This document shows, piece after piece, positions 32,700-47,540 of a stretch of 64,000 nt of DNA. Both the position numbers and the translations under genes were made by a program. The first letter of the stretch is position 1. Each line of letters starts with the position of its first letter. This DNA comes from Sphingomicrobium aestuariivivum (GTDB lineage: Bacteria; Pseudomonadota; Alphaproteobacteria; Sphingomonadales; Sphingomonadaceae): contig NZ_CP102629.1 of NCBI RefSeq assembly GCF_024721585.1, positions 1,054,001 to 1,118,000 of the forward strand, written 5' to 3'. The notes under the pieces were generated by a model. That model did no database searches and was not told where the DNA came from. It saw only the letters and a list, made by a program, of their open reading frames with translations.

Positions 32700-33221
32700 T
32701 CAAAGCGCCTCCAGCTCCGCCGCATAATGCGCGGCCTTCTCGGCATAGAGCGCCGCCGACGCGCGCAAGAGCCGCACCGCATCGTCATCGAGCGTGCGGA
32801 TCGCCTTGGCCGGCGCGCCGACGATCAGCGAGCGTGCGGGAAACACCTTGCCCTCGGTCACCAACGCGCCCGCGCCGACGATCGATTGCTTGCCGATCAC
32901 CGCATGGTTGAGGATGCGCGCGCCCATGCCGACGAGCGCCTCGTCCTCGATGGTGCAGCCATGGAGGATCGCCTGATGCCCCACCGTCACCCGCGCGCCG
33001 ATGGTGAGCGGCGCGTCGGGATCCGAATGGCCGATGGCGCCATCCTGGAAGTTGGTTTCCTCCCCAAGGAGGATCGGCGTATTGTCGGCGCGGATGACGG
33101 CGCCGAACCACACGCTCGCGCGCGCAGCCAACCGGACATCGCCGATGAGGTCCGCCGAGGGCGCCGCCCACGCGCCTTCCGCGAGCTGCGGCGACTGGCC
33201 GCCAAGAGCATAAAGCGTCAT
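32700..33221 (-). CDS. gamma-class carbonic anhydrase-like protein
   Basis: A protein of 173 residues folding as a left-handed beta-helix of hexapeptide repeats. The three zinc-binding histidines of the gamma-carbonic-anhydrase family are present: His65 (NFQDGAIGH), His82 and His87 (VGHQAILHGC). The YrdA/PaaY-like members have been found with or without anhydrase activity, so activity is likely but unproven. It lies 80 bp from the pirin gene on the same strand. Confidence 0.9.
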   Translation of the reverse strand: MTLYALGGQSPQLAEGAWAAPSADLIGDVRLAARASVWFGAVIRADNTPILLGEETNFQDGAIGHSDPDAPLTIGARVTVGHQAILHGCTIEDEALVGMGARILNHAVIGKQSIVGAGALVTEGKVFPARSLIVGAPAKAIRTLDDDAVRLLRASAALYAEKAAHYAAELEAL

Positions 33222-33276
33222 GGCCCGACCCTAGGCGCGGGGCGGGCGCGGCGACAAGCCTTTCAGCCGCTCGCCC

Positions 33277-35070
33277 TCAGCTCCCGACTGCCACCCGCGC
33301 CCCGGGCGAGGGCGTCGGCGAGAGATGCTGGGCGATCATCGCCTGCAGTTGCTCGAGCTTCACCGGCTTGGTGAGATGCGCCTGCATCCCGGCGGCAAGG
33401 CACTCCTCGACATCCTCGGCAAAGGCGTTGGCGGTGAGCGCGATGATCGGCAGCGATTCGGCGCCATGGCCGAGCCGCCGCAGCCGCTTTGTCGCATCGA
33501 TCCCGCCGAGATGCGGCATCTGGAGGTCCATCAGGACGAGCCCGTAGGGGCGCCCCTCGCGCGCCGCCTGCTCGATCGCGTCGACCGCCTCGAGCCCGTC
33601 GGCGGCGAGGTCGCAGGCCACCCCCAGCTGCTCGCACATGGCGGTGGCGAGCATCTGGTTCACTTCATTGTCCTCGACCACCAGCAGGCGGGCATCGCCG
33701 AACTGCTCGTCACGCGCGGCCCGCATTGGCGTTACCCCGTGCGGGGAGGCTCTCTCGACGAGCGGCAGGTCGATGGTGAAGGTCGAGCCCTCGCCTTGCG
33801 CGCTCTCGACCTTGAGGCGCCCGCCCATCGCGTCGGCAAGCCGCCGGCTGATCGCCAGTCCCAGCCCCGAGCCGCCGAAGTCGCGCGCGGTGGTGCTGGC
33901 GCCCTGGTCGAAGGTGTCGAAGATCTGCTTCTGCTTGCCCTCGGGGATGCCGATGCCGCTATCGATCACGGCGATCTCGACCCGCGGGCCGTCATCGCCC
34001 CCGCACCGCCGCGCCGCGACGCGGATGCTGCCCTTCTCGGTGAATTTCACCGCATTGCCGAGGAGGTTGAGGAGGATTTGCCGCACGCGCAGCCGGTCGC
34101 CTTCCATGAAGTCGGGAATGGCGGGGTCGCAGTCGACCTCCAGCTCCAGCCCCTTGGCCTCGGCGGCGGCGCGCATGATGTCGACGCAGGCATGGATCTT
34201 GGCGCGCAGGTCGACCGGTTCGTGCAAGAGCTCGAGCCGTCCCGCCTCGATCTTGGAGATGTCGAGGATGTCGTTCAGGAGCTGCAGCATCGAAGTGCCG
34301 CTGTCATGGATGAGCTGGACGTGGCGGTGCTGTTTCTCGGTCAACGGTTCGGCGAGGAGCAGCTCCGTGAAGCCGAGCACGCCGTTCATCGGCGTGCGGA
34401 TCTCGTGGCTCATATTGGCGAGAAAATGGCTCTTGGCGGCGGCGGCATGCTTGGCGGCATGGAGCGCCTTCTTGAGCTCCTTTTGCTGTTCGAGCTCGTC
34501 GGTGCGGTCGCGGAAGACGCCGAACAGCTGCGTGGGCTTGCCGGTCTCGTCCTTGTCGACCTTGGCGATCGATTCCACCGTTCGCACCTCGCCGTCGGCG
34601 CGCACCATGCGGGCGGTGAAGCGATAGTCGCGGCCGCCCGCAAGCGCGTCCTCGACCAGTTCGGCAACCGCCTCGCGGTCGTCGGGGTGGTAGACGTCGA
34701 GCGCCTCGTCCAGCGTCGGCACATGTCCCGGCTCCACCCCGTGGATCCGGCAGGTCTCGTCCGACCAGTAGAGCTCCTTCTCCTCGAGATCGATCAGCCA
34801 GTGGCCGACATGGGCGGTCGCCTCGGTCATGAGGAGGAGGTGGTTGGCCTCGTTGAGTTCGTCGATCGCCCGCGCGCGATGCTCGGCAAGTTGCGTCAGC
34901 CGGTCGGTTTGTGCCGAGGCCGACCGGGCGGCCTGCGCCTGCCTCAGCGCGAAGAAGAGGAGGAGGGTCACGAAACAGGCGGTCGCCACCAGCCCGAGCC
35001 CCATCAGCCGCGCGACCAGATAGGCGAGACCGATCGCCAGTACCGCGGCCATGTTCTTCCATCCGTGCAT
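33277..35070 (-). CDS. hybrid sensor histidine kinase with PAS and receiver domains
   Basis: A protein of 597 residues. Two adjacent membrane helices (about 8-25 and 27-43) with almost no periplasmic loop, a short coiled segment, a PAS domain (about 75-195, with WSDETCRIHG and FTARMVRADGEVRTVESIAKV), a HisKA helix with MSHEIRTPMNG (His222), HATPase (NLLGNAVKFTEKG, GGSGLGLAIS), and a receiver domain from about 461 with the phosphorylated Asp515 in VLMDLQMP. No Hpt domain and no cognate response regulator is adjacent, so its output partner is elsewhere. The ATG at 35070 is preceded by AGGAAGG; an ATG 11 codons upstream is open. Divergent from the pseudaminic acid locus. Confidence 0.9.
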   Translation of the reverse strand: MHGWKNMAAVLAIGLAYLVARLMGLGLVATACFVTLLLFFALRQAQAARSASAQTDRLTQLAEHRARAIDELNEANHLLLMTEATAHVGHWLIDLEEKELYWSDETCRIHGVEPGHVPTLDEALDVYHPDDREAVAELVEDALAGGRDYRFTARMVRADGEVRTVESIAKVDKDETGKPTQLFGVFRDRTDELEQQKELKKALHAAKHAAAAKSHFLANMSHEIRTPMNGVLGFTELLLAEPLTEKQHRHVQLIHDSGTSMLQLLNDILDISKIEAGRLELLHEPVDLRAKIHACVDIMRAAAEAKGLELEVDCDPAIPDFMEGDRLRVRQILLNLLGNAVKFTEKGSIRVAARRCGGDDGPRVEIAVIDSGIGIPEGKQKQIFDTFDQGASTTARDFGGSGLGLAISRRLADAMGGRLKVESAQGEGSTFTIDLPLVERASPHGVTPMRAARDEQFGDARLLVVEDNEVNQMLATAMCEQLGVACDLAADGLEAVDAIEQAAREGRPYGLVLMDLQMPHLGGIDATKRLRRLGHGAESLPIIALTANAFAEDVEECLAAGMQAHLTKPVKLEQLQAMIAQHLSPTPSPGARVAVGS

Positions 35071-35193
35071 AGCTTCCCTTCCTGTCACGAATTCGGCGGT
35101 CATGAGGCTAGGCGCGGTGGCTCACCGGGACATGAATCTTTCCTCCGTTTCCAAGCAAATGGGCGAAGCGTGCGCGCAGTTGCGCCGACAACC

Positions 35194-35213
35194 GCACCGA
35201 TGCGGTGCTTTTT
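35194..35213 (+). terminator. terminator-like hairpin in the leader of pseI
   Basis: GCACCG/CGGTGC with a 3-base loop, followed directly by five T, 66 bases before the pseI start. An alternative pairing (ACCGCA with TGCGGT) overlaps it and would break the terminator stem. Two exclusive hairpins, one with a T-run, are what a transcription attenuator looks like. No leader peptide with a telling codon run is seen. Confidence 0.45.
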
Positions 35214-35279
35214 CCGCTGGCTCGCCGACCGCATCTGGCGACTTGATCGCTCGAGGGTTGAGCGGGCAGAAGGGACGGC

Positions 35280-36353
35280 ATGGAAAGCCCAACCCCCGCC
35301 ATGCGGATCGGCGACCGGCGCATCGCGCCCGACGCGCGCCCCTATGTCATCGCCGAAATGTCGGCCAACCATGGCGGCGACCTGTCGCGCGCGCTCGACA
35401 TCATCGCCGCCGCCGCCGAGGCCGGCGCGAGCGCGATCAAGCTCCAGACCTATACCGCCGACACGCTGACCATCGAATGCGACAAGCCCGACTTCCGCAT
35501 CGACAACCCCGAGAGCCTGTGGAACGGGCGCACGCTCTACGACCTCTACGAGGAAGCGCATACGCCGTGGGACTGGCACGAGCCGCTGTTCGAGGCGGCG
35601 CGCGAGGCGGGCATCCACATCTTCTCGAGCCCCTTCGACGAGAGTGCGGTCGACCTGCTCGAGCGGCTTGAAACCCCCGCCTACAAGATCGCCTCCTTCG
35701 AGCGCAATTTCATCCCGCTCCTCGAAAAGGTGGCGGCGACCGACAAGCCGGTGATCGTCTCCTGCGGCCTCGCGACGATGGAGGATATCGAGGAATCGGT
35801 CGCGGCACTGCGCGCCGCCAATTCGGGACCGCGCTGCCTCCTTACCTGCACCTCGAGCTATCCCGCCGCGATTGGCGACAGCAACCTACGCCGCATCCCC
35901 GCGATGCAGGCCGCCTTCCCCGACTGCCAGGTCGGCCTGTCGGACCATACGCTCGGCAACACCGCCGCGATCGCCGCGGTCGCGCTCGGGGCCTGCGTGT
36001 TCGAAAAGCATTTCAAGCTCGGCGACGATGACAGCTCGGTCGACGCGGCCTTCTCGGTCACGCCCGGGGGCCTGCGCGACTATGTCCGCTCGATCGAGGA
36101 TGCATGGAGCGCGCTCGGCGAGGCGAAATTCGGCGCGGCGAGCGAGAATGAAGCCCAGTCGGCAATCTTCCGCCGCTCCATCTATGTCGTCGAGGACATC
36201 GCCGAGGGCGAGGAACTGAGCCGCGAGAATATCCGCTGCATCCGCCCCGGCTACGGCCTCCACCCGCGCCACTTCAAGGCGCTGTTGGGCAGGAAGGCGA
36301 GCCGCCCGCTCGAGCGCGGGACCCCCTTCAGCCTCGACATGGCCGCCGACTAG
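35280..36353 (+). CDS. pseI: pseudaminic acid synthase PseI
   Basis: A protein of 357 residues. The NeuB-type TIM barrel begins YVIAEMSANHGGDLSRALD and continues with AIKLQTYTADTLT, IFSSPFDESAVDLLE and KIASFERNFIPLL; a C-terminal SAF (antifreeze-like) domain covers about 290-355. The long Thr/Ile insertion IECDKPDFRI after TLT and the E-x-AHTPWDWH segment are typical of PseI rather than sialic acid synthase NeuB. It condenses 2,4-diacetamido-2,4,6-trideoxy-L-altrose with phosphoenolpyruvate to give pseudaminic acid. AAGGG lies five bases ahead of the ATG. It is alone on its strand here, ending convergently (4-base overlap) with the glycosyltransferase gene. Confidence 0.92.
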   Translation: MESPTPAMRIGDRRIAPDARPYVIAEMSANHGGDLSRALDIIAAAAEAGASAIKLQTYTADTLTIECDKPDFRIDNPESLWNGRTLYDLYEEAHTPWDWHEPLFEAAREAGIHIFSSPFDESAVDLLERLETPAYKIASFERNFIPLLEKVAATDKPVIVSCGLATMEDIEESVAALRAANSGPRCLLTCTSSYPAAIGDSNLRRIPAMQAAFPDCQVGLSDHTLGNTAAIAAVALGACVFEKHFKLGDDDSSVDAAFSVTPGGLRDYVRSIEDAWSALGEAKFGAASENEAQSAIFRRSIYVVEDIAEGEELSRENIRCIRPGYGLHPRHFKALLGRKASRPLERGTPFSLDMAAD

Positions 36354-37681
36354 AGAAAGCGCGCGAGCAGCGTGCCGGCATCGCGTTCGAGCGCGGCGGC
36401 ATCGGCTTCGTAGGACGCATCGTAGCGGCGCATGACCGCCTTCCAGCCGGGCGCGGTGTAAAAGGCCCGCGCCTCGGCATAGAGCCCCGCATGCCAGCCG
36501 TCCGCCTCGTGGACGAGGCCGCTGGCGATGAAGCCGTTATAATCGTGGCGCAGGCCGTCGAGCGTATCGACATGCACGACCGGGCGGCCGCCGCGCAGCA
36601 CGTTCATCGCCACCCCGCTATTGCCGCAGAAGACCATGTCGCAGGCCGCGATCTCATCGGCCAGCGGATTGCCGAACGTCACCTCGACGTTGGGGTAGCG
36701 CGCCGCGAGCGCGGAAAAGTCGTTTTCGAGGAGCGAGACGGGATGGTTGCGGATGATGATGCGGACTTCGGGGTCGTGCGCGGTAATGTCGGCGACCAGC
36801 GCCTCGACCGCCTCCGCGCGGGTGAGCGCGGTGAGGAAGATGCCGACGCTGCGGGGCCGCTCGCGCCAGGCGAAGGGCACGGTGTCGCCCTCGAGCCCGA
36901 CGAGCCCGATCTCGGCGCGGCAGCGCGAATGGCGGCGATAGGTCTCGCTCACCTCCTCGCCATAGAAGAGCGCGCAATCGGCAAGGACCGGCGGCACGTA
37001 TCCCGAATGCGGCGGGACCGGCGCATGGTTGGTGTAAATGACGTTGCGACGCTGCCGGTGCGCCGCTGCCGCAAGGCCGATGGCCTCGGGACCGTAATTG
37101 CTTGCCGTGACGACCGCGGCGATGGCCGGACGCCGTTCGAGCAGCCGCGAGAAATGCAGGTAGATGGCGAGCGCGCCGGCGATCCGCGCGGCGGGCATGA
37201 AGCTGTCGCGCGCGGCAAGGCGCGCGAGGAGCGGCCACAGCCGCGGGGCAAGTGCCAGGAAGCGCAGCAGCGTGACGAGATGGAGCGGGTGCAGGAGATA
37301 GCGCCGCGCCATCACGAGGCGGTGCAGGCCGCCACCCGCGGCGGCGGCATCGAGAATCTGCTCGACGCGGTCGATCGCATGGGCCTCGTTCTGAAAGTTC
37401 TGGACGGCGAGCACACGCGCCCCGCGATCGAGGCGTGGCGGCAGCGAGACCACCGTCTTGACCATATAGGCGAACAGGGCCAGCGGCTGGAGAAAGGCGA
37501 GCAGCACATAGAGACGGGTGACCGCGGCATAGAGCCGGTTCTTGGCGAGGATCTCGCCGAACACCGCACCGCGCACGGGCAATGTTTCCCAGCGCCTGAC
37601 GATCATCAGGGCAAGCGCCAGCGTATAGCCGCGCCGGGCGTTCGCCTCTGTCCCGATCCCCTCGAATGTCTCCCGTCGCAT
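36350..37681 (-). CDS. GT-B fold glycosyltransferase of the surface-glycan locus
   Basis: A protein of 443 residues. The C-terminal half shows a nucleotide-sugar binding pattern: SVGIFLTALTRAEAVE, IIIRNHPVSLLENDF, DMVFCGNSGVAMNVLRGGRPVVHVD. The middle has ASNYGPEAIGLAAAAHR and YTNHAPVPPHSGYVPP. This resembles the CDP-glycerophosphotransferase/capsule polysaccharide (KpsS-, polysialyltransferase-like) group of GT-B proteins. A hydrophobic stretch near residues 60-75 may anchor it at the membrane. It ends four bases into pseI on the opposite strand and is divergent from the flippase. The acceptor and donor are not known; a pseudaminyltransferase role is a reasonable guess from its place. Confidence 0.65.
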   Translation of the reverse strand: MRRETFEGIGTEANARRGYTLALALMIVRRWETLPVRGAVFGEILAKNRLYAAVTRLYVLLAFLQPLALFAYMVKTVVSLPPRLDRGARVLAVQNFQNEAHAIDRVEQILDAAAAGGGLHRLVMARRYLLHPLHLVTLLRFLALAPRLWPLLARLAARDSFMPAARIAGALAIYLHFSRLLERRPAIAAVVTASNYGPEAIGLAAAAHRQRRNVIYTNHAPVPPHSGYVPPVLADCALFYGEEVSETYRRHSRCRAEIGLVGLEGDTVPFAWRERPRSVGIFLTALTRAEAVEALVADITAHDPEVRIIIRNHPVSLLENDFSALAARYPNVEVTFGNPLADEIAACDMVFCGNSGVAMNVLRGGRPVVHVDTLDGLRHDYNGFIASGLVHEADGWHAGLYAEARAFYTAPGWKAVMRRYDASYEADAAALERDAGTLLARFL

Positions 37682-37848
37682 GCTGCTGACGATCCCCGCA
37701 TCTTTTTGGCCGCCACCGCGGCGACCGGCCCTCCATCGCAGGCAATTATTAACATTCCCGCCCTACATGGTTACCACATAGGTAAGTATTTTGGGATTCA
37801 CCTGCCGGGGGGCATGGTGCGTCGCGGGGACATCGGGGACTTCACACC
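37682..37848. promoter_or_regulatory. divergent control region between glycosyltransferase and flippase genes
   Basis: About 170 bases, AT-richer than the genome average. It contains TTAACA (about 37749), and a TTACC-ACATA-GGTAA dyad at about 37769-37783, followed by TAAGTATTTT. I cannot fix the promoters, but divergent transcription units must start here. Confidence 0.4.
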
Positions 37849-39129
37849 TTGAACGCGAAGAGATTTCTGGCGCTCCAGTCGCTGTTTTACGCCTTCGCCA
37901 ACGGCATCGAGGCGCTCGTCCCCTTCCTCCTCGCGCCGATCCTCACGCGCGCGCTCGATCCGGCCGAATATGGCATCTGGGTGCTGTTCATAACCTATGC
38001 CACCTTCCTGCGCCCGATCGTCGGGCTGACGACGCAGGATGCGATCCGCATGCGCTTCTACGATTTCGACCAGAAGCAGCTCGACCAGTTCACCCACACC
38101 ATCCTGTTCGTCATGACGGTGCTCGCGCTGGCCGTCGCGGGGCTGACGTGGATCCTTCGCGAACCGCTCGAGGCGGCGACCAAATTCCCCGCCGAGTGGC
38201 TCGCCACGGTGGTCCTCGGCGCCTTCCTCTTCGAGGTCTTCTACACCGCGCTCGCGCTCCAGCAGTTCCACAACAACCGCAAGGCCTTCCTCCTCACGCA
38301 GGTCGCGCAGGCGGTCCTCAGCCTCGTCTTCATCTCGGGCTTCCTCTATGCCGGCTGGGACTGGCGCGGGGTCATCCTCGGGCGCATGGGCGGGCTGTCC
38401 ATCGCCGCGCTCCTGTCGCTGTGGACGCTCGGCTACCGCCCGCGCGCCTTCCTGCGCATCCCCGAGCGCTCCTTCTATCGCCAGATCGCGCGCTTCGGCG
38501 TGATCTACTGGCCCTCGGGCATGGTGATCATGGCGGTGGCGATGACCGACAAGGTGGTGGCGGCGCATTATCTCGGCGTGTCGGCGAGCGCGATCTACGG
38601 GGTCGCCGCGCTGTTCGCCTCGGCGTATTGGGTCCTCAACCACAGCTTCGTCCTCGCCTGGACGCCGTGGCTGTTCCGCAAGCTGCGCGCCGCGCCCGAC
38701 GACGGCATCGCCGACGTGCTGACCATCTCGGCCATCTATTTCGTCCTCGCCACGCTGGCGGCAGGCGGCATCTACGTGGCCTCGCTGATCGTGGCGCCCT
38801 ATCTCCTCGGCGAGGACTTCCACAGCGCCATCCCGCTGATGAAATATATCATGGGCGCGATCCTCCTGCAGGGCTTCTTCATGCACAACATGAAGTTCCT
38901 CCATTACGACAAGAGCATCGGCGTCATGTCGGCCTGCAGCGCGATCGTCATCGTCCTCAACCTCATTCTCAGCATGCAATGGGCATCGAGCCTCGGCCTG
39001 CGCGGCATCATGCTCGCGACCGCCTTGTCCTTTGCCGTGGTTTTTGCCGCCAGCGCCGTCATGGTGGGCTACCGCCTCTATCGGGTGGCCAAGGTCAAAA
39101 AGGGAGTTGAACCCGTTGTTTCAGGATAA
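37849..39129 (+). CDS. polysaccharide flippase, Wzx-like (MOP superfamily)
   Basis: A protein of 426 residues with about twelve membrane helices. The start FLALQSLFYAFANGIEALVPFLLAPILTRALDPAEYGIWVLF matches the first two helices and loop of O-antigen flippases. It should move lipid-linked oligosaccharides from the cytosolic to the periplasmic face. The start is a TTG (37849) with GGGGA about ten bases upstream; no in-frame ATG precedes the first conserved helix. Overlaps the pseB start by 14 bases, so lipid-linked glycan export and pseudaminic acid synthesis are cotranscribed. Confidence 0.85.
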   Translation: MNAKRFLALQSLFYAFANGIEALVPFLLAPILTRALDPAEYGIWVLFITYATFLRPIVGLTTQDAIRMRFYDFDQKQLDQFTHTILFVMTVLALAVAGLTWILREPLEAATKFPAEWLATVVLGAFLFEVFYTALALQQFHNNRKAFLLTQVAQAVLSLVFISGFLYAGWDWRGVILGRMGGLSIAALLSLWTLGYRPRAFLRIPERSFYRQIARFGVIYWPSGMVIMAVAMTDKVVAAHYLGVSASAIYGVAALFASAYWVLNHSFVLAWTPWLFRKLRAAPDDGIADVLTISAIYFVLATLAAGGIYVASLIVAPYLLGEDFHSAIPLMKYIMGAILLQGFFMHNMKFLHYDKSIGVMSACSAIVIVLNLILSMQWASSLGLRGIMLATALSFAVVFAASAVMVGYRLYRVAKVKKGVEPVVSG

Positions 39130-40126
39130 GAGCATTCTCATCACCGGGGGCACCGGCTCCTTCGGCCGCCGCTTCATCAAGACGATCCTCGAGCGCTACA
39201 AGGCGCGCCGCGTCATCGTCTTCTCGCGCGACGAATATAAACAGTCGGTCATGCAGGAGGTCTATAACGCCCCCGCCATGCGCTACTTCCTCGGCGACAT
39301 CCGCGACCGGCAGCGCCTGATGCAGGCGATGGAGGGTGTCGACGTCGTTGTCCATGCCGCGGCCCTCAAGCAGGTGCCCGCGCTCGAGTACAACCCCATC
39401 GAGGCGGTGAAGACCAACATCCTCGGCACCGAGAATGTCATCGAGGCCGCGCTCCATCACAATGTCGAACGCGTCATCGCCCTGTCGACCGACAAGGCCG
39501 CCGCGCCGGTCAACCTCTATGGCGCGACCAAGCTCGCCGCCGAGAAGATCGCCATCTCGGCCAACAATGTCATCGGCACGCGCGACACCCGCCTGTCGGT
39601 CGTGCGCTACGGCAATGTCATCGGCTCGCGCGGTTCGGTCATCCCGCTGTTCCAGAAGCTGAAAGCCGAAGGCGCGAGCGAATTCCCGATCACCGATCCC
39701 AAGATGACGCGCTTCCTTCTCACCCTCCAGCAGAGCGTCGACTTCGTCATCGACTGTGCCGCGCGCATGCATGGCGGCGAGACCTTCATCCCGCGCATCC
39801 CCTCGGCCACCATCGAGACCATTGCCGAGGCGATCGATCCCGACATGCCGCACAAACATGTCGGCATCCGCCCGGGCGAGAAGCTGCACGAGGTGCTGAT
39901 CCAGCCCGATGCCTCGTGGCAGACGGTCGAATATGACCGCCATTACGTCATCAAGCCGAGCTTCAACTTCAACCGCATCGACACCGATTACCTGACCGCC
40001 GCCAATGGCGAGAAGGGCCGTCTCGTCGGCGACGAGTTCGACTACAACTCGCGCGACAACGACCATTATGTGGACGCGGCCGAGCTGCGCGAGATGATCG
40101 CGGGCGCCATGCCCTTCGACGCCTGA
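39116..40126 (+). CDS. pseB: PseB, UDP-GlcNAc 4,6-dehydratase (C5-inverting)
   Basis: A protein of 336 residues. NADP-binding GGTGSFG is at 11-17 and the catalytic Asp126-Lys127 and Tyr135-x3-Lys139 lie in STDKAAAPVNLYGATK, the same spacing as in H. pylori FlaA1. SDR enzymes with this DK pair invert C5 and start pseudaminic acid synthesis from UDP-GlcNAc. The TTG at 39116 gives MFQDKSILITGG, the expected beginning; AGGGAG lies nine bases before it. The C-terminus carries about 40 extra residues (FNRIDTDYLTAANGEKGRLVGDEFDYNS), normal for PseB. Confidence 0.93.
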   Translation: MFQDKSILITGGTGSFGRRFIKTILERYKARRVIVFSRDEYKQSVMQEVYNAPAMRYFLGDIRDRQRLMQAMEGVDVVVHAAALKQVPALEYNPIEAVKTNILGTENVIEAALHHNVERVIALSTDKAAAPVNLYGATKLAAEKIAISANNVIGTRDTRLSVVRYGNVIGSRGSVIPLFQKLKAEGASEFPITDPKMTRFLLTLQQSVDFVIDCAARMHGGETFIPRIPSATIETIAEAIDPDMPHKHVGIRPGEKLHEVLIQPDASWQTVEYDRHYVIKPSFNFNRIDTDYLTAANGEKGRLVGDEFDYNSRDNDHYVDAAELREMIAGAMPFDA

Positions 40127-40144
40127 GCAAGCGAGGACCAGCCG

Positions 40145-41308
40145 ATGCCCGACCCGATCCGCTACAGCTGCCAGACGATCGACGAGGAAGATGTGGCGGC
40201 AGTCGCCGAGGTACTGCGCTCGGACTTCCTGACGCAGGGCCCTGCCACCCGCCGCTTCGAGCAGGCGGTCGCCGATTATGTCGGTACCGGCCATGGCGTG
40301 GCGGTTTCCAACGGCACTGCCGCGCTCCATCTCCTCGCGCAGGCGCTGGGGCTCGGGCCCGGCAAGCTGTTGTGGACCAGCCCCAACAGCTTCGTCGCCT
40401 CGGCCAATGCGGGGCGCTACCTCGGCGCCGATGTGGATTTCGTCGACATCGATCCCGCGACCGGCTCGATCGACCCCGATGCGCTCGAGGCCAGGCTCGC
40501 CGCCGGGGGCCGCAAGCCCGATCTCCTGATCGCCGTCCATTTCGCGGGCCACAGTCTCGGCTTCGAGCGGATCGCCGAGCTGTGCGAAGCGCATGGCATC
40601 CCCCTCGTCGAGGACGCCGCCCATGCGCTCGGCGCCAGCTACGCGGACCGCCCCGACATGAAGATCGGCGCGCACCCCAAGAGCCGCGCCGCCACCTTCA
40701 GCTTCCACCCCCTGAAATCGATCACCACCGCCGAGGGCGGCATGATCGTCACCGGGGACGCGGCGCTGGCCGCCGAGCTCGCCATGCTGCGCAGTCATGG
40801 CGTGACCAAGGATCCAGCGCTGCTCGAACGCGCCGACGAGGGCGCCTTCTATTACGAACAGCAGGCGCTCGGCTTCAATTATCGCATCAGCGACCTGCAG
40901 GCCGCGCTCGGCACCAGCCAGATGGCCCGTATCGATGACTTCATGGAGGCGCGCCGTGCCCGCGCGCGGCGCTACCGCGATCTCCTCGCCGACCTGCCGC
41001 TCGACCTGCCGCCCGCAACCGACGCCTCGAGCTGGCACCTCTATGTCGTCCGCCTCGATCCCGCGCGCACCGACGTGACGCGCCGCGCGGTCTTCGATGC
41101 GCTACGCGCCGACCGGATCGAGGCGCACGTCCATTACATCCCGATCCACACCCAGCCCTATTACCGCGACCTCGGCTTCGCGGCGGGCGATTTCCCGCAG
41201 GCGGAGCTTTATTACGAGCGCTGCCTCAGCCTGCCCATCTACCCGCGCATGACCGATGCCGAGCAGGACCGCGTCGTCGCCGCGCTGGCCGCCGCGCTGG
41301 GCCGATAG
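40145..41308 (+). CDS. pseC: PseC, UDP-4-amino-4,6-dideoxy-N-acetyl-beta-L-altrosamine transaminase
   Basis: A protein of 387 residues of the DegT/AryC1/StrS aminotransferase family. PLP ligands: Asp157 in VEDAAHALGASY and the Schiff-base Lys191 in FSFHPLKSITTAEGGM. It adds an amino group from glutamate to C4 of the PseB product. The GYDEQQALGFNYRISDLQAALG-like segment is typical of the family. AGCGAGGA precedes the ATG, 18 bp after pseB; next gene starts three bases after its stop. Confidence 0.94.
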   Translation: MPDPIRYSCQTIDEEDVAAVAEVLRSDFLTQGPATRRFEQAVADYVGTGHGVAVSNGTAALHLLAQALGLGPGKLLWTSPNSFVASANAGRYLGADVDFVDIDPATGSIDPDALEARLAAGGRKPDLLIAVHFAGHSLGFERIAELCEAHGIPLVEDAAHALGASYADRPDMKIGAHPKSRAATFSFHPLKSITTAEGGMIVTGDAALAAELAMLRSHGVTKDPALLERADEGAFYYEQQALGFNYRISDLQAALGTSQMARIDDFMEARRARARRYRDLLADLPLDLPPATDASSWHLYVVRLDPARTDVTRRAVFDALRADRIEAHVHYIPIHTQPYYRDLGFAAGDFPQAELYYERCLSLPIYPRMTDAEQDRVVAALAAALGR

Positions 41309-41311
41309 GCG

Positions 41312-41995
41312 ATGCGCAAGGTCGCGATCATCCAGGCGCGCATGGGCTCCTCCCGGCTGCCCGGAAAGGTGCTCAAGCCGCTCGGCCACCGCCTCGTCCT
41401 CGACCATGTCGTGACCCGCGTAATGGCGGCGCGGCGGCTCGACGCGGTGGTCGTCGCGACCTCCGACCTTGCCGGCGACGACGCCGTCGAGGTGCATTGC
41501 GCCAGCCACGGCTGGACCTGCGTGCGCGGCGATGAGCAGGATGTGCTCGGCCGTTACGCCAAGGCGGCGCGCGCGGCACGGGCGGACATCGTCGTCCGCG
41601 TCACTGCCGATTGCCCGCTCTTCTCGCCGCTGATCCTCGACGCGATGCTCGAGCGCTTCGATCCGGACGCCATGGATTACATGTCGACCAACTGGCCGAC
41701 CCGCAGCTTCCCCGTCGGGCTCGACTGCGAGGTGATGCGCGTTGACCGTCTCCTCGCCATCGCGGAAACGACCGGCGACCCATACGACCGCGAGCATGTG
41801 ACCCCGCATTTCTACCGCAACCCGGACCGTTTCCGGCTGGCCAGCCATGCTTGCGGGCGCGACCTGTCGGCGATCTCGATCACCCTCGATACGGCGGAGG
41901 ATTATGCGCGGCTGGAAGCGCTGGTCGAAAGGCGCCCCGAGCTGCTCGATCCCGCCGCCGACGTGGTCGCCATCGCGGCGGAGGAGCTGGGCTAG
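41312..41995 (+). CDS. SpsF-type cytidylyltransferase, probable CMP-pseudaminic acid synthetase
   Basis: A protein of 227 residues. It begins VAIIQARMGSSRLPGKVLKPL and contains VRVTADCPLFSPLILD and YDREHVTPHFY, the marks of SpsF/CMP-KDO-synthetase-like nucleotidyltransferases. Classical PseF starts instead with an ARGGSKRIPxKN motif. As it stands directly after pseC and no other CMP-sugar synthetase is in the locus, it probably activates pseudaminic acid with CTP. Activity on that sugar is inferred from position. It ends convergently with pseG, overlapping by four bases. Confidence 0.8.
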   Translation: MRKVAIIQARMGSSRLPGKVLKPLGHRLVLDHVVTRVMAARRLDAVVVATSDLAGDDAVEVHCASHGWTCVRGDEQDVLGRYAKAARAARADIVVRVTADCPLFSPLILDAMLERFDPDAMDYMSTNWPTRSFPVGLDCEVMRVDRLLAIAETTGDPYDREHVTPHFYRNPDRFRLASHACGRDLSAISITLDTAEDYARLEALVERRPELLDPAADVVAIAAEELG

Positions 41996-43011
41996 TCCTG
42001 CCCCCGCGCCAACGCGACCAGCGTCGCCGCCAGCCGTTCCGCGCCCTTGCCGTCCACCATCGCCGCCGCCTGCCGCGCCATGTCGCGCCGCGCCGCCGCA
42101 TCCCCGACGAGCGCCCCGATGGCGCGATGCATGGCATCCGCCTCGACCTCTTCATGGGTGCCGAGGAAGCGGATCGCCCCTGCCCTTTCGGCGAGCATGA
42201 CCTGCGCATGCTGGTTGTCGGCGACCTCGACCACCAGCGAGGGCAGCCCGAGGCAGGCGCGCTCCCACAGCATCACGCCCCCCGCGCCGAGCGCGAGGTC
42301 GGCCCGTGCGAGCAAGCCCGCCAGCCGCGCCTTGTCGGGCGCGTGGTGGAGGCGGACATGGTCCGCCCGCCGCGCCGCCTCGAGATCCCGGTCCTCGAGC
42401 CGCGTTCCCGGCCCGATGACGAGGTCGACCGCCACCCCGTCCATGTCGCGCAGCGCCGCGACGGCCTTGGCGGTCTCGCCCGTCGGGTCGGTGCCGCCGA
42501 AGCAGACGTTGACGCGGACCGGCGTGCCGGCCGTCTCCCGATCGACGGGAGCAAGCGCCCTGATCGTCGGCGACAGGGGCGCGAAGGCCGGACCGCGCAG
42601 CCAGCGCCCCTCGCCCGGCCCCGCTTCGTGAAGCCGCACCACGCGGTCCGCCTGCCGCGCCTGGTCGAGATCGTCGATCACCATCAGCGGCATGCCGGCC
42701 GTGCGCGCCGCGACCTCCCATCCGCCGACATCGTCATAGTGGTCGAGGCAGAGAGCGCTGACGTGCCCTGCCTCGTGCAGCAGCAGCTCAAGGGCTTGGT
42801 CGGGCGCCGCGTCATCGACAAGGACAACCGGCAGGTCGTCGCCGAAAAAGGCGCCGAGAAAGGGTTCGCTGTCGCGCGCGGTGAGCAGCGTCACCTCGAC
42901 CCCGGGATCGCGGCGCAGCGCCTCGACGAGCGCGGCGGCGCGCGCGAAATGGCCGGTGCCGAGCGCGCGCCCGGCATCGGCGCGGATGGCGATGCTAGTC
43001 GCGCCGGACAT
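41992..43011 (-). CDS. pseG: PseG, UDP-2,4-diacetamido-2,4,6-trideoxy-beta-L-altropyranose hydrolase
   Basis: A protein of 339 residues, MurG-like GT-B fold. The N-terminal signature IRADAGRALGTGHFARA with catalytic-type His21, the DHYDDVGGWE segment, FGGTDPTGETAK and LGAGGVMLWERACLGLPSLVVEVADNQ are typical of PseG. It removes UDP before condensation by PseI. The start overlaps the end of the upstream polytopic-protein gene by 17 bases. It is on the opposite strand to pseB-pseC-pseF, so the pathway is split between two transcripts. Confidence 0.92.
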   Translation of the reverse strand: MSGATSIAIRADAGRALGTGHFARAAALVEALRRDPGVEVTLLTARDSEPFLGAFFGDDLPVVLVDDAAPDQALELLLHEAGHVSALCLDHYDDVGGWEVAARTAGMPLMVIDDLDQARQADRVVRLHEAGPGEGRWLRGPAFAPLSPTIRALAPVDRETAGTPVRVNVCFGGTDPTGETAKAVAALRDMDGVAVDLVIGPGTRLEDRDLEAARRADHVRLHHAPDKARLAGLLARADLALGAGGVMLWERACLGLPSLVVEVADNQHAQVMLAERAGAIRFLGTHEEVEADAMHRAIGALVGDAAARRDMARQAAAMVDGKGAERLAATLVALARGQD

Positions 43012-44548
43012 AATAGCTGAAGCTCACTTCCTCGCCCTCATGGTCGATAACGAGGTCATAGTCGGCAAGGATCGCGGCAAAGCGCGGATCGCGGCTGAAC
43101 GCCGTTGCCCAGTCGACCTCGACATGGCGAAGCGGCCAGGTGGCGCCCTTGCTGAAAAGCAGCGCATCGGGCGGGCGGTCGATCCACAGCCGGATCATCC
43201 GGTCATGCAGCGCGACCCGCCCCGGATGCTCGAGCGGCATCACGGGGGCCACGCCGTCATTGGCGGGCACATCCGCAGGTGCCAGCTCGGCGGCCACATA
43301 GGCGGTGTTGACCATCGGGTTCCAGCGCAGCGCCCCTGCCCCCGCCAGATACTGGTTGTAGGGCGAGGGATGCATGTTGAGGACGCCGATCCGCTTGCCC
43401 TCGACGCGCTCGCCCGCCGCCTCGATGACCCGCTCCAGCTCGCGGTCGGCGGCCCGATATTGATGCGTCTCGGCAAAGGCCCGCACGACATGCGGCAGGA
43501 TGCACAGGAGAAAGACGAGCTCGCCCCACCAACGCAGCCGGTTTCCTGCGAGCCAGCGCAGGAAGACAATTCCCATGACGATCGGGAAGACGTGGTGCGT
43601 ATACCAGCGCTCCTGCACTGCGGCGACGAGGATCACGCCCGCCATGACCGCGCCGCCGAGCGCGATGTGCCGCACCGGCACCTTCGAGACGCGCAGCAAG
43701 AGGAGGGCGAGCAGCGCGGGCAGAAGGATGACCAGCGCCCGCTCCAACTTGTCCGACCCCGACCGGAGGTTGGCGTCGATCGCGCTCATCATCATCGAGA
43801 TGGCCTCGCGCTGCGCGGGGTCGATGAACCAGAGGAGGAGGTAGCAGGCGACGACCCCGCCGGCGATGAGGTTCTCGATCCTGAACAGCGTTCTGATACG
43901 TCGCTGCACGGCCGCATCGGCCAGCTCGACCAGCAGCACGACCGCCGCGTAGAGATATTTGAACAAGAGCGTGACGCCCAGCCACAGGCCGAGGATCGCA
44001 CGCAGCTTCGGCCCGATGCGATCGCCAGCGGGGTCCGACACGCGCAGCACGAGATAAGGCCACAGCCCCGCCAGCACGAGTGGTTCGCGCAGCCCGAAGA
44101 TATTCTTGTAGAGGATCGGCACCACCAGCAGGATCGCCAGCGGCACGAGGAAGAAGGCAGGCCCTGCCCCCACCGCCCTGCGACGGATCGCATAGGCCAG
44201 CCATGCCCCGATGAGGCTCACCAGCGTCGACATGAGGATCACCGCCAGCGCCCCGCCGAGGCCGGTCGCCTGGCCGAGATGCCATGCGGTGGTGAACCAG
44301 GCTTTTTCCATCGGCGGGAAATAGGGGACATAGTCGCCGTAGGCCGCGCCCAGCTCGACCGCCAGCGCGCCCGACAGCACCCCGCCGCCAAGGTCGTGGT
44401 GGAGCGGATAGACATGGGCGTAGAAGAGGTAGAGCGCGCCCATCGCGAGACCGCCCGCGAGGAGCGGCAGGGCGGTCCCGCCAATGCCCGTCGGGATCGC
44501 TGCACGAGGATGGGCCGGACCGGACGCGACGCCGCGCATCATCGTCAT
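42995..44548 (-). CDS. large polytopic membrane protein of the glycan locus, unknown activity
   Basis: A protein of 517 residues. About ten hydrophobic helices cover residues 25-380, with the first loop rich in aromatic and acidic residues (HVYPLHHDLGGG, YGDYVPYFPPMEKAW). A soluble C-terminal domain of about 135 residues follows (GVLNMHPSPYNQYLAG to YYVRRD). This architecture recalls GT-C glycosyltransferases or a Wzy-type polymerase, but I cannot see a decisive DxE/ExD motif. It is cotranscribed with pseG (17-base overlap) and follows the acetyltransferase gene, so it belongs to the same pathway. It may be the polymerase or a membrane glycosyltransferase of the locus. Confidence 0.7.
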   Translation of the reverse strand: MTMMRGVASGPAHPRAAIPTGIGGTALPLLAGGLAMGALYLFYAHVYPLHHDLGGGVLSGALAVELGAAYGDYVPYFPPMEKAWFTTAWHLGQATGLGGALAVILMSTLVSLIGAWLAYAIRRRAVGAGPAFFLVPLAILLVVPILYKNIFGLREPLVLAGLWPYLVLRVSDPAGDRIGPKLRAILGLWLGVTLLFKYLYAAVVLLVELADAAVQRRIRTLFRIENLIAGGVVACYLLLWFIDPAQREAISMMMSAIDANLRSGSDKLERALVILLPALLALLLLRVSKVPVRHIALGGAVMAGVILVAAVQERWYTHHVFPIVMGIVFLRWLAGNRLRWWGELVFLLCILPHVVRAFAETHQYRAADRELERVIEAAGERVEGKRIGVLNMHPSPYNQYLAGAGALRWNPMVNTAYVAAELAPADVPANDGVAPVMPLEHPGRVALHDRMIRLWIDRPPDALLFSKGATWPLRHVEVDWATAFSRDPRFAAILADYDLVIDHEGEEVSFSYYVRRD

Positions 44549-44651
44549 CGAACCTGAAAGCGAAAGCGGGAAGGGCCTGTCATGGGAAACAGGTGCCAGC
44601 GCCGCCGACGGACGTCAAACAGCAGGTGCCATACCGCGCCATGATTTCGTC

Positions 44652-45098
44652 TCAGGCGGCGCCTTTTGTCCCCGGCGCCGCCCATTTCTCGAACTCGCCG
44701 GAGGCGATCCTCGCCATTCCGGCGCGGGCGCAGATTCTCTTCGCCGCGACATTTTCGGGCCTGATATAGCCGACCATCGCCGGCTCCATCTCCAGCATCA
44801 GCGCCGCGACCTTCGCCGCGAGGCCCGTGCCGCGCCGGGCGGGCGCGACGTTCCACGAGAATTCGACCTCCTCGCCATAGTCGAAGCGGATGGTTGCCAC
44901 CGGTTCGCCCTCTTGCTCGACGATATGGATCCGCAGATCGCGCCGCCGGAGCGCCCGGTCGAGCCACGCGACATGGCTCTCCCAGGCGATCTCGGCGGTA
45001 TCGCGCGACATGGCCCGCGTGACCGGATCGTTGCGCCAGTCGAAGAGCAGGCGGGCATCTTCGAGCGTGGCAGGCCTGACGACCAGATCGCGATCCAT
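44652..45098 (-). CDS. GNAT acetyltransferase, probable PseH
   Basis: A protein of 148 residues. It starts VVRPATLEDARLLFDWRNDPVTRAMS, a pattern seen in PseH and related sugar N-acetyltransferases, and the acetyl-CoA binding loop is RRGTGLAAK. PseH acetylates the 4-amino group of the PseC product. Being the only acetyltransferase in the locus and lying upstream of pseG on the same strand, it is the likely PseH. AGGAA stands five bases ahead of the ATG at 45098. The upstream open frame (19 more codons) is not conserved in appearance. Confidence 0.78.
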   Translation of the reverse strand: MDRDLVVRPATLEDARLLFDWRNDPVTRAMSRDTAEIAWESHVAWLDRALRRRDLRIHIVEQEGEPVATIRFDYGEEVEFSWNVAPARRGTGLAAKVAALMLEMEPAMVGYIRPENVAAKRICARAGMARIASGEFEKWAAPGTKGAA

Positions 45099-45247
45099 GG
45101 CAGTTCCTACAGTGACGGGCGCCTGCCAGCCTAGATGAACCTGCGCGGCGGACAAGCCCGCTGCCGGCCTTGCCCGCGATCGCCGTGCGACAAGGCGCGC
45201 CTTCCGCCCCCTTTACCGGGACACCGATTTCCTGTCTCTAGGACCAA

Positions 45248-46591
45248 ATGGTGGAGGGGTGGTTGGCCGCAAATCTCGAGACATTGTTCGAACGCCTGTT
45301 CCCGATCTGCCGTTCGATCACCGGCCCCGGCATCCGCCGCAGCATGGAAATCCTCGCCGAGCATATGCCGCTCGAGGTGCATGGCGTGCCGAGCGGCGAG
45401 AAGGTGCTCGACTGGACCGTGCCGCCCGAATGGGAATTGCGCCGCGCGCGCCTGTGGGGCCCCGACGGGTCGCTCGTTCTCGACAGCGACGGGAACAACC
45501 TCCACGTCCTCAACTTCTCGACCCCCTTCTCGGGGGAGATGGACCTCGAGGAGCTCGACCGGCACCTCTTCTCCGAACCGGCGCTGCCCGACGCCATCCC
45601 CTATGTCACCAGCTACTACAACCGCCGCTGGGGGCTGTGCCTGTCGCACCATCAGCGCGAGGCGCTGGTGCCGGGTACCTACCGCGTCGAGATCGACACA
45701 GAGATCCGCGATGGCCTTCTCAACTATGCCACCGCCGAATTGCCGGGCGAGAGCGACGAGGTGGTGCTGCTCTCCACCTATCTGTGCCACCCGAGCCTCG
45801 CCAATAACGAGCTGTCGGGCCCGCTCGCGATGGTGCGCCTGTACGAGGCGCTGGAGGCGATGGAGCAGCGCCGTTACACCTACCGCTTCCTCGTCATTCC
45901 CGAGACCATCGGCTCGATCACCTATCTCGCGCGCGAGGGCGCCGAGCTCCTGCCGCGCATGGCCGCGGGCATGGTCCTCACCTGCCTCGGCGGCCCTTCG
46001 GAGACGGTCTCGTTCAAGCTCAGCCGCCGCGACTGGACCGGTCGCCCGAGCACCATCGACCGTCTCGCGCGCCATTTCGCGGGCACCCTGCCCGGCTATG
46101 CGGTGCGCGATTTCAGCCCGATGGGGGGGTCGGACGAGCGGCAATATTGCTCGCCCGGTTTCGACATGCCCGTCGTCCAGGCCGCGCGCACCGTCTACGG
46201 GCAGTATCCGGGCTATCACAACAGCCACGACGATCTCGATTTCATGACGATCGCGGCGGTCGAGGACAGCGCCGCCAGGCTCGCGACCTTCATCGCCGCC
46301 TTCGAGGAGGCGGGGCGCGAATATGTCAATCGCTCGCCCCATGGCGAACCCCAGCTCGGGCGGCGCGACCTCTACCCCTCGCTCAACAGCCCGATGTCGC
46401 GTATCCTGTCGAGCGACGACCAGTTCGACGGGCGGCGGATGCTCAACCAGCTCCTCGGCCTCCTGTCGCTCGCCGACGGAGAGCATGACCTGCTCGCCAT
46501 CGCCGAGCGGATCGACTTTCCCGTGACCGAACTGGCCCCGCTCGCCCGCCACTTGCGCGAGCATGACCTCCTGGAGCTCAAATCCTCATGA
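45248..46591 (+). CDS. DUF4910/DUF2172 aminopeptidase-like zinc hydrolase
   Basis: A protein of 447 residues. The N-terminal part (about 1-75) includes FPICRSITGPGIRRSM and WTVPPEWELRRARLWGPDG, and the core has STYLCHPSLANNELSGP (His181, Asn/Glu at 186-188), IPETIGS (218-223) and YHNSHDDLDF (His324, His327). These match the DUF4910 family, an M28-aminopeptidase-like fold with a probable zinc site. The C-terminal 110 residues look like a winged helix. Such genes are often found in polysaccharide loci, where they are suspected to hydrolyse amide bonds on sugars rather than peptides. It overlaps the formyltransferase gene by four bases (ATGA), so they form a coupled pair. Confidence 0.8.
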   Translation: MVEGWLAANLETLFERLFPICRSITGPGIRRSMEILAEHMPLEVHGVPSGEKVLDWTVPPEWELRRARLWGPDGSLVLDSDGNNLHVLNFSTPFSGEMDLEELDRHLFSEPALPDAIPYVTSYYNRRWGLCLSHHQREALVPGTYRVEIDTEIRDGLLNYATAELPGESDEVVLLSTYLCHPSLANNELSGPLAMVRLYEALEAMEQRRYTYRFLVIPETIGSITYLAREGAELLPRMAAGMVLTCLGGPSETVSFKLSRRDWTGRPSTIDRLARHFAGTLPGYAVRDFSPMGGSDERQYCSPGFDMPVVQAARTVYGQYPGYHNSHDDLDFMTIAAVEDSAARLATFIAAFEEAGREYVNRSPHGEPQLGRRDLYPSLNSPMSRILSSDDQFDGRRMLNQLLGLLSLADGEHDLLAIAERIDFPVTELAPLARHLREHDLLELKSS

Positions 46592-47391
46592 AGATCGCGC
46601 TCATCACCGGCGACCACCAGCGCCACGCCTATCTCGCCAGCCGCCTCGCGGCCACGGGCACGCTCGCCGGCTGGGTCGTCGAGGAGCGCGAGGCCTTCCT
46701 TCCCGCGCCGCCGCCCGGCCTTCCCGCCGAAACGGAAGCGCTGTTCAAGCGTCATTTCCGCCTCCGCGAGGAAGCCGAGACGGCGGTCTTCGGCACTCCG
46801 CAGGTGGATGTTTCCCGCTTCGGCGTCTCCCGCGAGGATCTCAATGCGCCCGCCACCATCGACTATTTGCGTTCGCTGGAACCAGACCTTGTCATCTCTT
46901 ACGGCTGCCACAAGCTCGAGGCTCCGCTGCGCGAGGCGGTCGGCGCGACCTTCTGGAACACGCATGGCGGCCTGTCGCCGCAATATCGCGGGGTCATCAC
47001 CCATTTTTGGCCGAGCTACATGCTCGAGCCGCAGATGACCGGCATGACGCTCCACGAGACCACCGACGAACTCGATGGCGGTGCGATCATCCACCAGTCG
47101 GGTGCGGTGCTCCGGCGCGGCGACGGCGTCCATCTCCTCGCCGCGCGCACCGTCAAGGCCTATGCCGACACGATCGGTCCGCTGCTGGCGCGCCTCGATC
47201 CCGCGGCGCTGCCCGCCGGTATCCGCCAGAAATCCACCGGCAAGCTGTGGACCAGCCGCGACTGGCGCCCCGAGCATCTCCATCTCGTCTACGACCATCA
47301 TGGCGACCGGATCGTCGACGCGGTCCTTGATGGCCGCCTCGAGGGCCGCGAGCCCAAGCTCCTGTCGGTGCTCGAGCCGCAAGGGGCGTAA
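46588..47391 (+). CDS. formyltransferase, probably for an amino sugar
   Basis: A protein of 267 residues of the methionyl-tRNA formyltransferase-like fold. The catalytic triad positions are present: Asn124 and His126 in WNTHGGLSPQYRG, and Asp163 in DELDGGAII. There is no C-terminal OB domain of the true Fmt and no second domain of ArnA, and it lies in a sugar locus. It likely uses N10-formyltetrahydrofolate to formylate the amino group of a nucleotide sugar. It is translationally coupled to the DUF4910 hydrolase. The substrate is unknown; position makes a pseudaminic acid derivative or a partner sugar plausible. Confidence 0.8.
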   Translation: MKIALITGDHQRHAYLASRLAATGTLAGWVVEEREAFLPAPPPGLPAETEALFKRHFRLREEAETAVFGTPQVDVSRFGVSREDLNAPATIDYLRSLEPDLVISYGCHKLEAPLREAVGATFWNTHGGLSPQYRGVITHFWPSYMLEPQMTGMTLHETTDELDGGAIIHQSGAVLRRGDGVHLLAARTVKAYADTIGPLLARLDPAALPAGIRQKSTGKLWTSRDWRPEHLHLVYDHHGDRIVDAVLDGRLEGREPKLLSVLEPQGA

Positions 47392-47453
47392 GGCCGCGGC
47401 ATGGCCGCGCCACGGCGCGGGCCTTGCGCTGCCTGTCATCGCTGTCGGTAAAA

Positions 47454-47540
47454 TGGTGCCCAGGAGAGGACTCGAACCTCCACGGGGTTACCCCCGCCGC
47501 CACCTGAAGACGGTGCGTCTACCAATTCCGCCACCTGGGC
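47454..47540 (-). tRNA. tRNA-Leu (anticodon CAG)
   Basis: An 87-base class II tRNA on the minus strand with encoded CCA. Acceptor stem GCCCAGG/CCTGGGC, anticodon stem CCGTC/GGCGG with loop TTCAGGT giving CAG, long variable arm, T-loop TTCGAGT. Reads CTG, the dominant leucine codon in this GC-rich genome. Confidence 0.97.

Follow-up and report, generated by a model that had tools for sequence, protein, structure and literature searches.

The DNA analysed here, called the window throughout, is a stretch of 64,000 nucleotides of Sphingomicrobium aestuariivivum (assembly GCF_024721585.1, contig NZ_CP102629.1, positions 1,054,001 to 1,118,000), in which a gene for a DUF4910 protein and a gene for a putative sugar-type N-formyltransferase (FT) overlap each other beside genes of pseudaminic acid (Pse) biosynthesis (Table 1). 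The initial annotation, made from the letters alone, had read the two products as a hydrolase removing one N-acyl group and a transferase putting a formyl group in its place. The gene borders it gave and the coupling of the two genes by an ATGA stop/start overlap proved exact, and both motifs it had named in the DUF4910 protein were located, CHPSLANNE at residues 180-188 and YHNSHDD at residues 323-329.

Table 1. The DUF4910-FT gene pair and the neighbouring features, in window coordinates
Feature	Position	Strand	Evidence or remark
DUF4910 protein gene (DUF4910, inserted DUF2172 and HTH_47), 447 aa	45248..46591	+	Pfam domains; match to 3k9t; proposed metal-dependent nonulosonic acid (NulO) N-deacylase
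Sugar-type N-formyltransferase (FT) gene, 267 aa (putative)	46588..47391	+	Pfam, fold, N124/H126/D163
ATGA stop/start overlap coupling the DUF4910 and FT genes	46588..46591	+	Overlap of four bases
pseI, pseudaminic acid synthase	35280..36353	+	TIGR03586, 450 bits (cut-off 340)
Possible glycosyltransferase, no Pfam match	36350..37681	-	Weak TIGR04396 match, 22 bits (cut-off 125)
Wzx-like flippase	37849..39129	+	PF01943, E 1.6e-12
pseB (start codon uncertain; open reading frame (ORF) opens at 39032)	39107..40126	+	TIGR03589, 490 bits (cut-off 408)
pseC	40145..41308	+	TIGR03588, 487 bits (cut-off 424)
Cytidylyltransferase-family protein in pseF position	41312..41995	+	PF02348, E 9.4e-29; PseF model 17 bits (cut-off 206)
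pseG-like UDP-sugar hydrolase	41992..43011	-	TIGR03590, 127.5 bits (cut-off 153.6)
Long ORF between pseG- and pseH-like genes, apparent membrane protein judging from its sequence	42995..44548	-	No Pfam family
pseH-like GNAT N-acetyltransferase, divergent from the pair	44652..45155	-	PF13302, E 5.1e-11; PseH model 30 bits (cut-off 93)
tRNA-Leu(CAG), right-hand edge of the variable region	47454..47540	-	

The pairing of DUF4910 with FT goes beyond chance and recurs across nine phyla. When four FT sequences were searched against 84,980 species genomes, 69 loci were returned; the removal of copies or near-copies (L153, L166, L196 and L185) and of eight distant homologues (L209-L216), followed by the addition of the window and of the loci L062, L082 and L087, gave a set of 61 FT loci. 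A full DUF4910 gene was present at 56 of them and directly adjoined the FT gene at 54. At 53 loci it stood directly upstream on the same strand, overlapping or within 200 bases; a script with limits of -120 to +200 bases recovered 52 of these, the 53rd (L187) falling outside the limits through an over-long ORF start. In the other full pairs DUF4910 was found directly downstream of FT (L191) or 1.5-3.6 kb off (L206 and L208). Among the five loci lacking a full DUF4910 gene, one (L154) holds a fragment of it at the contig edge, and at two (L152 and L198) the FT gene itself lies within 300 bases of such an edge. The gap was exactly -4 in 22 of the 56 full pairs. The carriers belong to Pseudomonadota, Bacteroidota, Bacillota, Acidobacteriota, Planctomycetota, Chloroflexota, Actinomycetota, Cyanobacteriota and Woesearchaeota. 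The distance matrices of the two proteins were correlated (r 0.86, n=56), none of 2000 permutations reaching this value, and the nearest relative of the window was the same for both genes, an uncultured Rhodobacteraceae contig (L148; 67% and 62%). The search for the two genes together in other genomes, which the initial annotation had suggested, thus left its proposal standing. No description of the DUF4910-FT pair was found in the literature searched, which excludes supplements and hence the neighbourhood tables in which Das 2014 may have included it. From the DUF4910 side, 57 loci were fetched (L062-L117 and the 3-kb contig L046), and matches to DUF4910 were present in 3 of 298 genomes of the window's family, 29 of 385 of its class and 29 of 398 of its phylum, these sets overlapping and each count including the window's own genome.

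In the DUF4910 protein of the window all three Pfam families exceeded their cut-offs, namely PF16254 (DUF4910, E 6e-82), the inserted PF09940 (DUF2172, E 5.6e-31) and the C-terminal PF16221 (HTH_47, E 5.9e-19). The structure 3k9t, that of CA_C2195 from Clostridium acetobutylicum, was aligned to residues 10-424 with E 6.4e-87. It has been described as having an M28-like fold with catalytic residues missing, and its Zn ligands are His189, Asp195 and His324 (Das 2014, PMC4000134). In the alignment both Zn-binding histidines are kept in the window protein (His181 and His324), Asn187 stands where 3k9t has Asp195, with Glu188 adjoining, and the columns of the M28 catalytic Asp and of the general-base Glu hold Ser183 and Pro218. 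The catalytic residues that the initial annotation had reported as visible in both enzymes are consequently present in full in FT (Asn124, His126 and Asp163) and only in part in the DUF4910 protein. Positions 187-188 read Asn-Glu in 75 of 110 aligned family members, and an acidic residue occupies 187 or 188 in all 110, so that a metal ligand may have shifted to the adjacent residue. His181, Asp296, Glu297, Tyr323, His324 and Asp328 are invariant in 110/110.

CA_C2195 shares the three domains with the window protein, and its locus includes a NulO synthase; it differs in the Zn ligand Asp195, in the Asp of its GD motif, which corresponds to Gly249 here, and in a tabulated neighbourhood that contains no formyltransferase (PMC4000134). 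Residue 249 was not Asp in any of 56 FT-paired DUF4910 proteins (0 of 56) and was Asp in 40 of 54 unpaired ones. As independent proof of the pairing this residue was discarded, only four independent pairs being found on well-supported branches (seven on all) and the sign test not being significant; because it follows the clades of the tree, it is a clade mark.

The window FT matched PF00551 (Formyl_trans_N) with E 9.9e-11 and reached no NCBIfam cut-off. Its residues Asn124, His126 and Asp163, which we take to be catalytic, were invariant in 61/61 aligned homologues. Foldseek comparison of its AlphaFold model (built on 27 sequences, mean pLDDT 90.7) ranked the N-terminal formyltransferase domain of ArnA first, followed by methionyl-tRNA formyltransferases and the sugar enzyme WbkC, so that the predicted fold together with the Asn/His/Asp triad gives the window FT the combination expected of sugar N-formyltransferases. 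ArnA and WbkC, although among the best structural matches, share with it 14-21% identity in the alignments listed. The ArnA domain acts on UDP-Ara4N, and the substrate of WbkC is GDP-perosamine by its PDB title.

Genomes that carry the pair are associated with NulO synthesis. A whole-genome search covering 53 of the 56 pair-bearing genomes found a PF03102 NulO synthase in 50 (weakest E 2.7e-60), against 83 of 190 background genomes from the class of the window with a threshold of E 1e-30 (Fisher 2e-12), and PseI above its cut-off in 29/53 against 32/190 (Fisher 1.3e-7); both p-values are rough, because the background is a single class while the carriers span phyla. Among the 55 pairs other than that of the window, the synthase lay inside the fetched stretch for 16, while 18 had short flanks and the remaining 21, whose flanks measured 5 kb or more on either side, showed none; for all 21 it was found elsewhere in the genome. 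The neighbourhood with Pse genes noticed in the initial annotation therefore holds for the window and fails as a general rule. Its claim that the hydrolase and the formyltransferase work together on the glycan gains good support from the independent context, i.e., from co-occurrence and from the synthase-bearing genomes, at the level of NulOs, for which a linked Pse locus is not required. As a separate observation, the genes around eight pairs lying apart from the NulO synthase genes (L149, L151, L155, L160, L161, L168, L172 and L180, each in a genome with a synthase elsewhere) were listed, and several of these pairs stood among housekeeping-looking genes (e.g., guaB/guaA-like and ssb-like, named by eye).

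The partners of both proteins are exchanged. Proteins recognized by an Antibiotic_NAT profile (NAT) were found within 6 kb of DUF4910 at 19 of 54 unpaired loci, 15 of them within 300 bases, and at none of the 56 FT-paired loci (Fisher 1.9e-7), the profile having been built from nine of these 19 neighbours and part of a tenth. When checked with Pfam, 18 of the 19 matched PF02522 above its cut-off, the exception being a 128-aa ORF near a contig end (L069). L063 and L083 are nested within an FT-paired branch of the tree, yet in both a NAT abuts DUF4910. On a Tritonibacter plasmid pseB and pseC are followed by a DUF4910 gene (product 56% identical to that of the window) that has a four-base overlap with an AAC(3) gene, and then by pseI. 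The NAT of L091 (1948-4443) forms a fusion protein with an FkbH_N domain, and its gene overlaps that of DUF4910. Domains of the FkbH type are responsible for loading glyceroyl groups, and the L091 arrangement is possibly a glyceroyl counterpart of the formyl cassette; it fits the glyceroyl group for which Cj1295 of Campylobacter jejuni is required (see below).

On the other side, FT is kept and its companion changes. In the distant FT homologues L209-L216 a CE4 deacetylase (PF01522) abuts FT in 8/8 cases, the fetched DNA contains no DUF4910, and a PseI-like NulO synthase is present in 8/8 loci. Like the DUF4910-FT pairs, they apparently combine deacylation and formylation near a NulO synthase; unlike them, they use an unrelated deacetylase, have the order FT then CE4, and carry an FT 25% identical to that of the window (two aligned members). 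A CE4 profile from these loci had no match in the other loci searched, those of DUF4910 included. On a Haloarcula halobia plasmid (L222, 7901-9525) a gene for a CE4-family polysaccharide deacetylase overlaps an FT-family gene among glycan genes. The acceptor enzyme thus varies while DUF4910 is constant, and the deacylating enzyme varies while FT is constant, which is the pattern predicted by a pathway that removes a group and then replaces it. The gene preceding FT in L211-L216, with MCG near its start, resembles one for an asparagine synthase (tested with Pfam in L211).

A close published system is that of C. jejuni, in which knock-out of Cj1295 led to the loss of di-O-methylglyceroyl Pse from flagellin (Hitchen 2010, PMC3068675). 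The sugar is given there, after Logan 2009, as 7-acetamido-5-(2,3-di-O-methylglyceroyl)amino Pse, and Cj1295 was hypothesised to cleave the acetamido group at C5 (PMC3068675). Kinship of Cj1295 to the window protein rests on published labels, Cj1295 being called a DUF2172 protein (PMC6321876). The two have in common the domain label and the Pse locus, Cj1295 being required for a change of the N-acyl group at C5 (PMC3068675, PMC6321876); they differ in the incoming group, 2,3-di-O-methylglyceroyl, and in the gene next in number, which is that of the N-acetyltransferase Cj1296/7 and not an FT. For the DUF4910 family a role in the synthesis of modified carbohydrates, by transacylation or perhaps deacylation, was proposed by Das 2014 (PMC4000134). 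The statement of the initial annotation that DUF4910 has no assigned sugar function was consequently mistaken, and its amidase idea has precedent in these two proposals; that idea, moreover, is now backed by the exchange of partners and by the Cj1295 genetics, as a predicted activity. What is new here is the DUF4910-FT cassette and its interchangeable partners. Modified acyl groups at C5 are likewise on record: 5-N-formyl-legionaminic acid exists in Halorubrum sp. PV6, whose gene cluster, like the window, contains a predicted formyltransferase gene (the examined text of PMC6137143 names no deacylating enzyme, and HrrPV6_1052 does not appear in the main text), and C5 N-lactoyl Pse is known in Psychrobacter (PMC7281560).

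Considering these facts, we infer, with a probability of roughly 0.7, that the two genes form a cassette for exchanging an N-acyl group of NulOs, in which DUF4910 frees an amine, likely that at C5, for formylation by FT. NulOs are found as decorations on flagella, capsules and S-layers and differ in their N-acyl groups; to our knowledge, the enzymes exchanging these groups are mostly unassigned. In the first step DUF4910 would hydrolyse one N-acetyl group of the NulO or of its nucleotide-linked precursor, most likely the C5 acetamido derived from UDP-GlcNAc, and in the second FT would formylate the freed amine. The C5 nitrogen arrives already acetylated from UDP-GlcNAc, while PseC leaves the one at C7 as a newly made amine, so that only formylation at C5 would need a deacylase, which points to the C5 site. 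In the window genome, with PseB, PseC, PseI and a PseH-like enzyme presumably acetylating C7, the expected product would be CMP-Pse5Fo7Ac destined for a surface polysaccharide, a flippase being encoded nearby. No flagellin match was found in this genome, which makes a surface polysaccharide likelier than flagella as the home of the sugar. The wider picture has, in our judgement, about even chances: DUF4910 would be a new type of NulO N-deacylase and the constant member of a modular cassette for amide swapping, with a slot for FT or an AAC(3)-type enzyme, moving between phyla and often acting in trans, the unrelated CE4-FT pair would have arisen for the same purpose, and the window strain would make 5-N-formyl Pse. 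Such a two-gene cassette with interchangeable acyltransferases would give DUF4910 a concrete, testable activity, and N-formyl NulOs would become predictable from sequence in nine phyla, also where the pair lies away from the NulO locus.

Several observations weigh against the exchange cassette or some part of it. As the M28 general base and one catalytic Asp are missing, hydrolysis by DUF4910 would need another mechanism, and the fold of FT is in itself no proof of a sugar substrate, because methionyl-tRNA formyltransferases are also among its nearest folds. The modified position could be C7, since Pseudoalteromonas distincta has a 7-N-formyl Pse (PMC3210612) and the pair occurs in two further species of its genus. 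The two flagellin variants tabulated for C. jejuni NCTC 11168 both go with an out-of-frame Cj1296/7 (PMC3068675), which may therefore not be the acyl donor there. Seen from the DUF4910 side, FT stood beside DUF4910 in only 3 of the 57 fetched loci (L062, L082 and L087), the window apart, and 35 of the 54 unpaired loci, some on short contigs, had no NAT within 6 kb. FT occurs without DUF4910 at L164 and L175, the assembly of the latter also holding the pair L174. No synthase match was obtained in three pair-bearing genomes, namely a Saprospiraceae metagenome-assembled genome (MAG), a small Pelagibacteraceae genome and an actinobacterial MAG. Finally, DUF4910 is present in two plasmid clusters of exopolysaccharide type (L224 and L225) whose other genes include rfbC and those for a SAM methyltransferase, a nucleotidyltransferase and a separate PIG-L deacetylase, with no FT among them; the family therefore need not have a single function, and a second role is possible. 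DUF4910 hits were also obtained in Rhizobium, Sinorhizobium and Shinella.

The alternative explanations are not mutually exclusive, and their odds need not sum to one with that of the exchange cassette. DUF4910 might be a transacylase, shuttling acetyl, or else an incoming acyl or peptide moiety, from donor to sugar amine or back, with FT acting before or after it. Das 2014 put transacylation first in view of the missing M28 catalytic residues (PMC4000134), replaced here by Ser183 and Pro218. Acyl transfer, however, is already supplied by FT and NAT, and the CE4 deacetylase found in the place of DUF4910 beside the distant FTs points to removal of a group, so that transacylation appears unlikely to us.

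Alternatively, FT might work like PseJ, which makes the 7-N-formyl group directly, i.e., it would formylate the PseC-made 4-amine (the future C7) in competition with PseH, and DUF4910 would do something else. A 7-N-formyl Pse, such as this route would give, is on record (PMC3210612), and formyltransferases named PseJ, Pse enzymes by that name, are present in the PDB. The window FT, however, is only weakly similar to the solved PseJ sequences (E 0.31 and 0.42), with no close relation evident, and this route needs no partner, yet DUF4910 adjoins FT at nearly all loci of the set (54/61); we regard it as rather improbable.

It is quite doubtful that the pair modifies another amino sugar or a cofactor and is linked to NulO genomes indirectly. 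The 21 pairs with no NulO synthase in the fetched flanks and the housekeeping-looking surroundings of several of the eight listed pairs would agree with such a substrate, but a synthase is present in all 21 genomes, and five searched congeners of the window strain lack both DUF4910 (0/5) and PseI above its cut-off (0/5). A peptidase was rejected as the main account of the DUF4910 protein, and an aminopeptidase acting on a glycoprotein target is highly improbable, for despite the M28-like fold (3k9t; PMC4000134) the catalytic Asp and Glu are absent from the window protein, and the activity of Cj1295 altered the glycan and not the flagellin polypeptide (PMC3068675).

As to the locus around the proposed exchange cassette, PseB, PseC and PseI exceed their NCBIfam equivalog cut-offs, while the PseF-, PseG- and PseH-like products remain below theirs and are assigned putative roles from family and position. 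The long ORF between the pseG- and pseH-like genes had no relative among the DUF4910- and FT-side loci searched. The segment from about 33.2 kb to tRNA-Leu(CAG) (window 33200-47540) is a variable region, filled here by the Pse locus with the pair. No repeat of the tRNA end of at least 12 bases, as an integration footprint, was found elsewhere in the window on the same strand. In the congeners G145 and G077 the left flank of the region lies outside the DNA compared; between the matching flanks there are about 2 kb in G274, as against 8.5-11 kb in G197 and G238.

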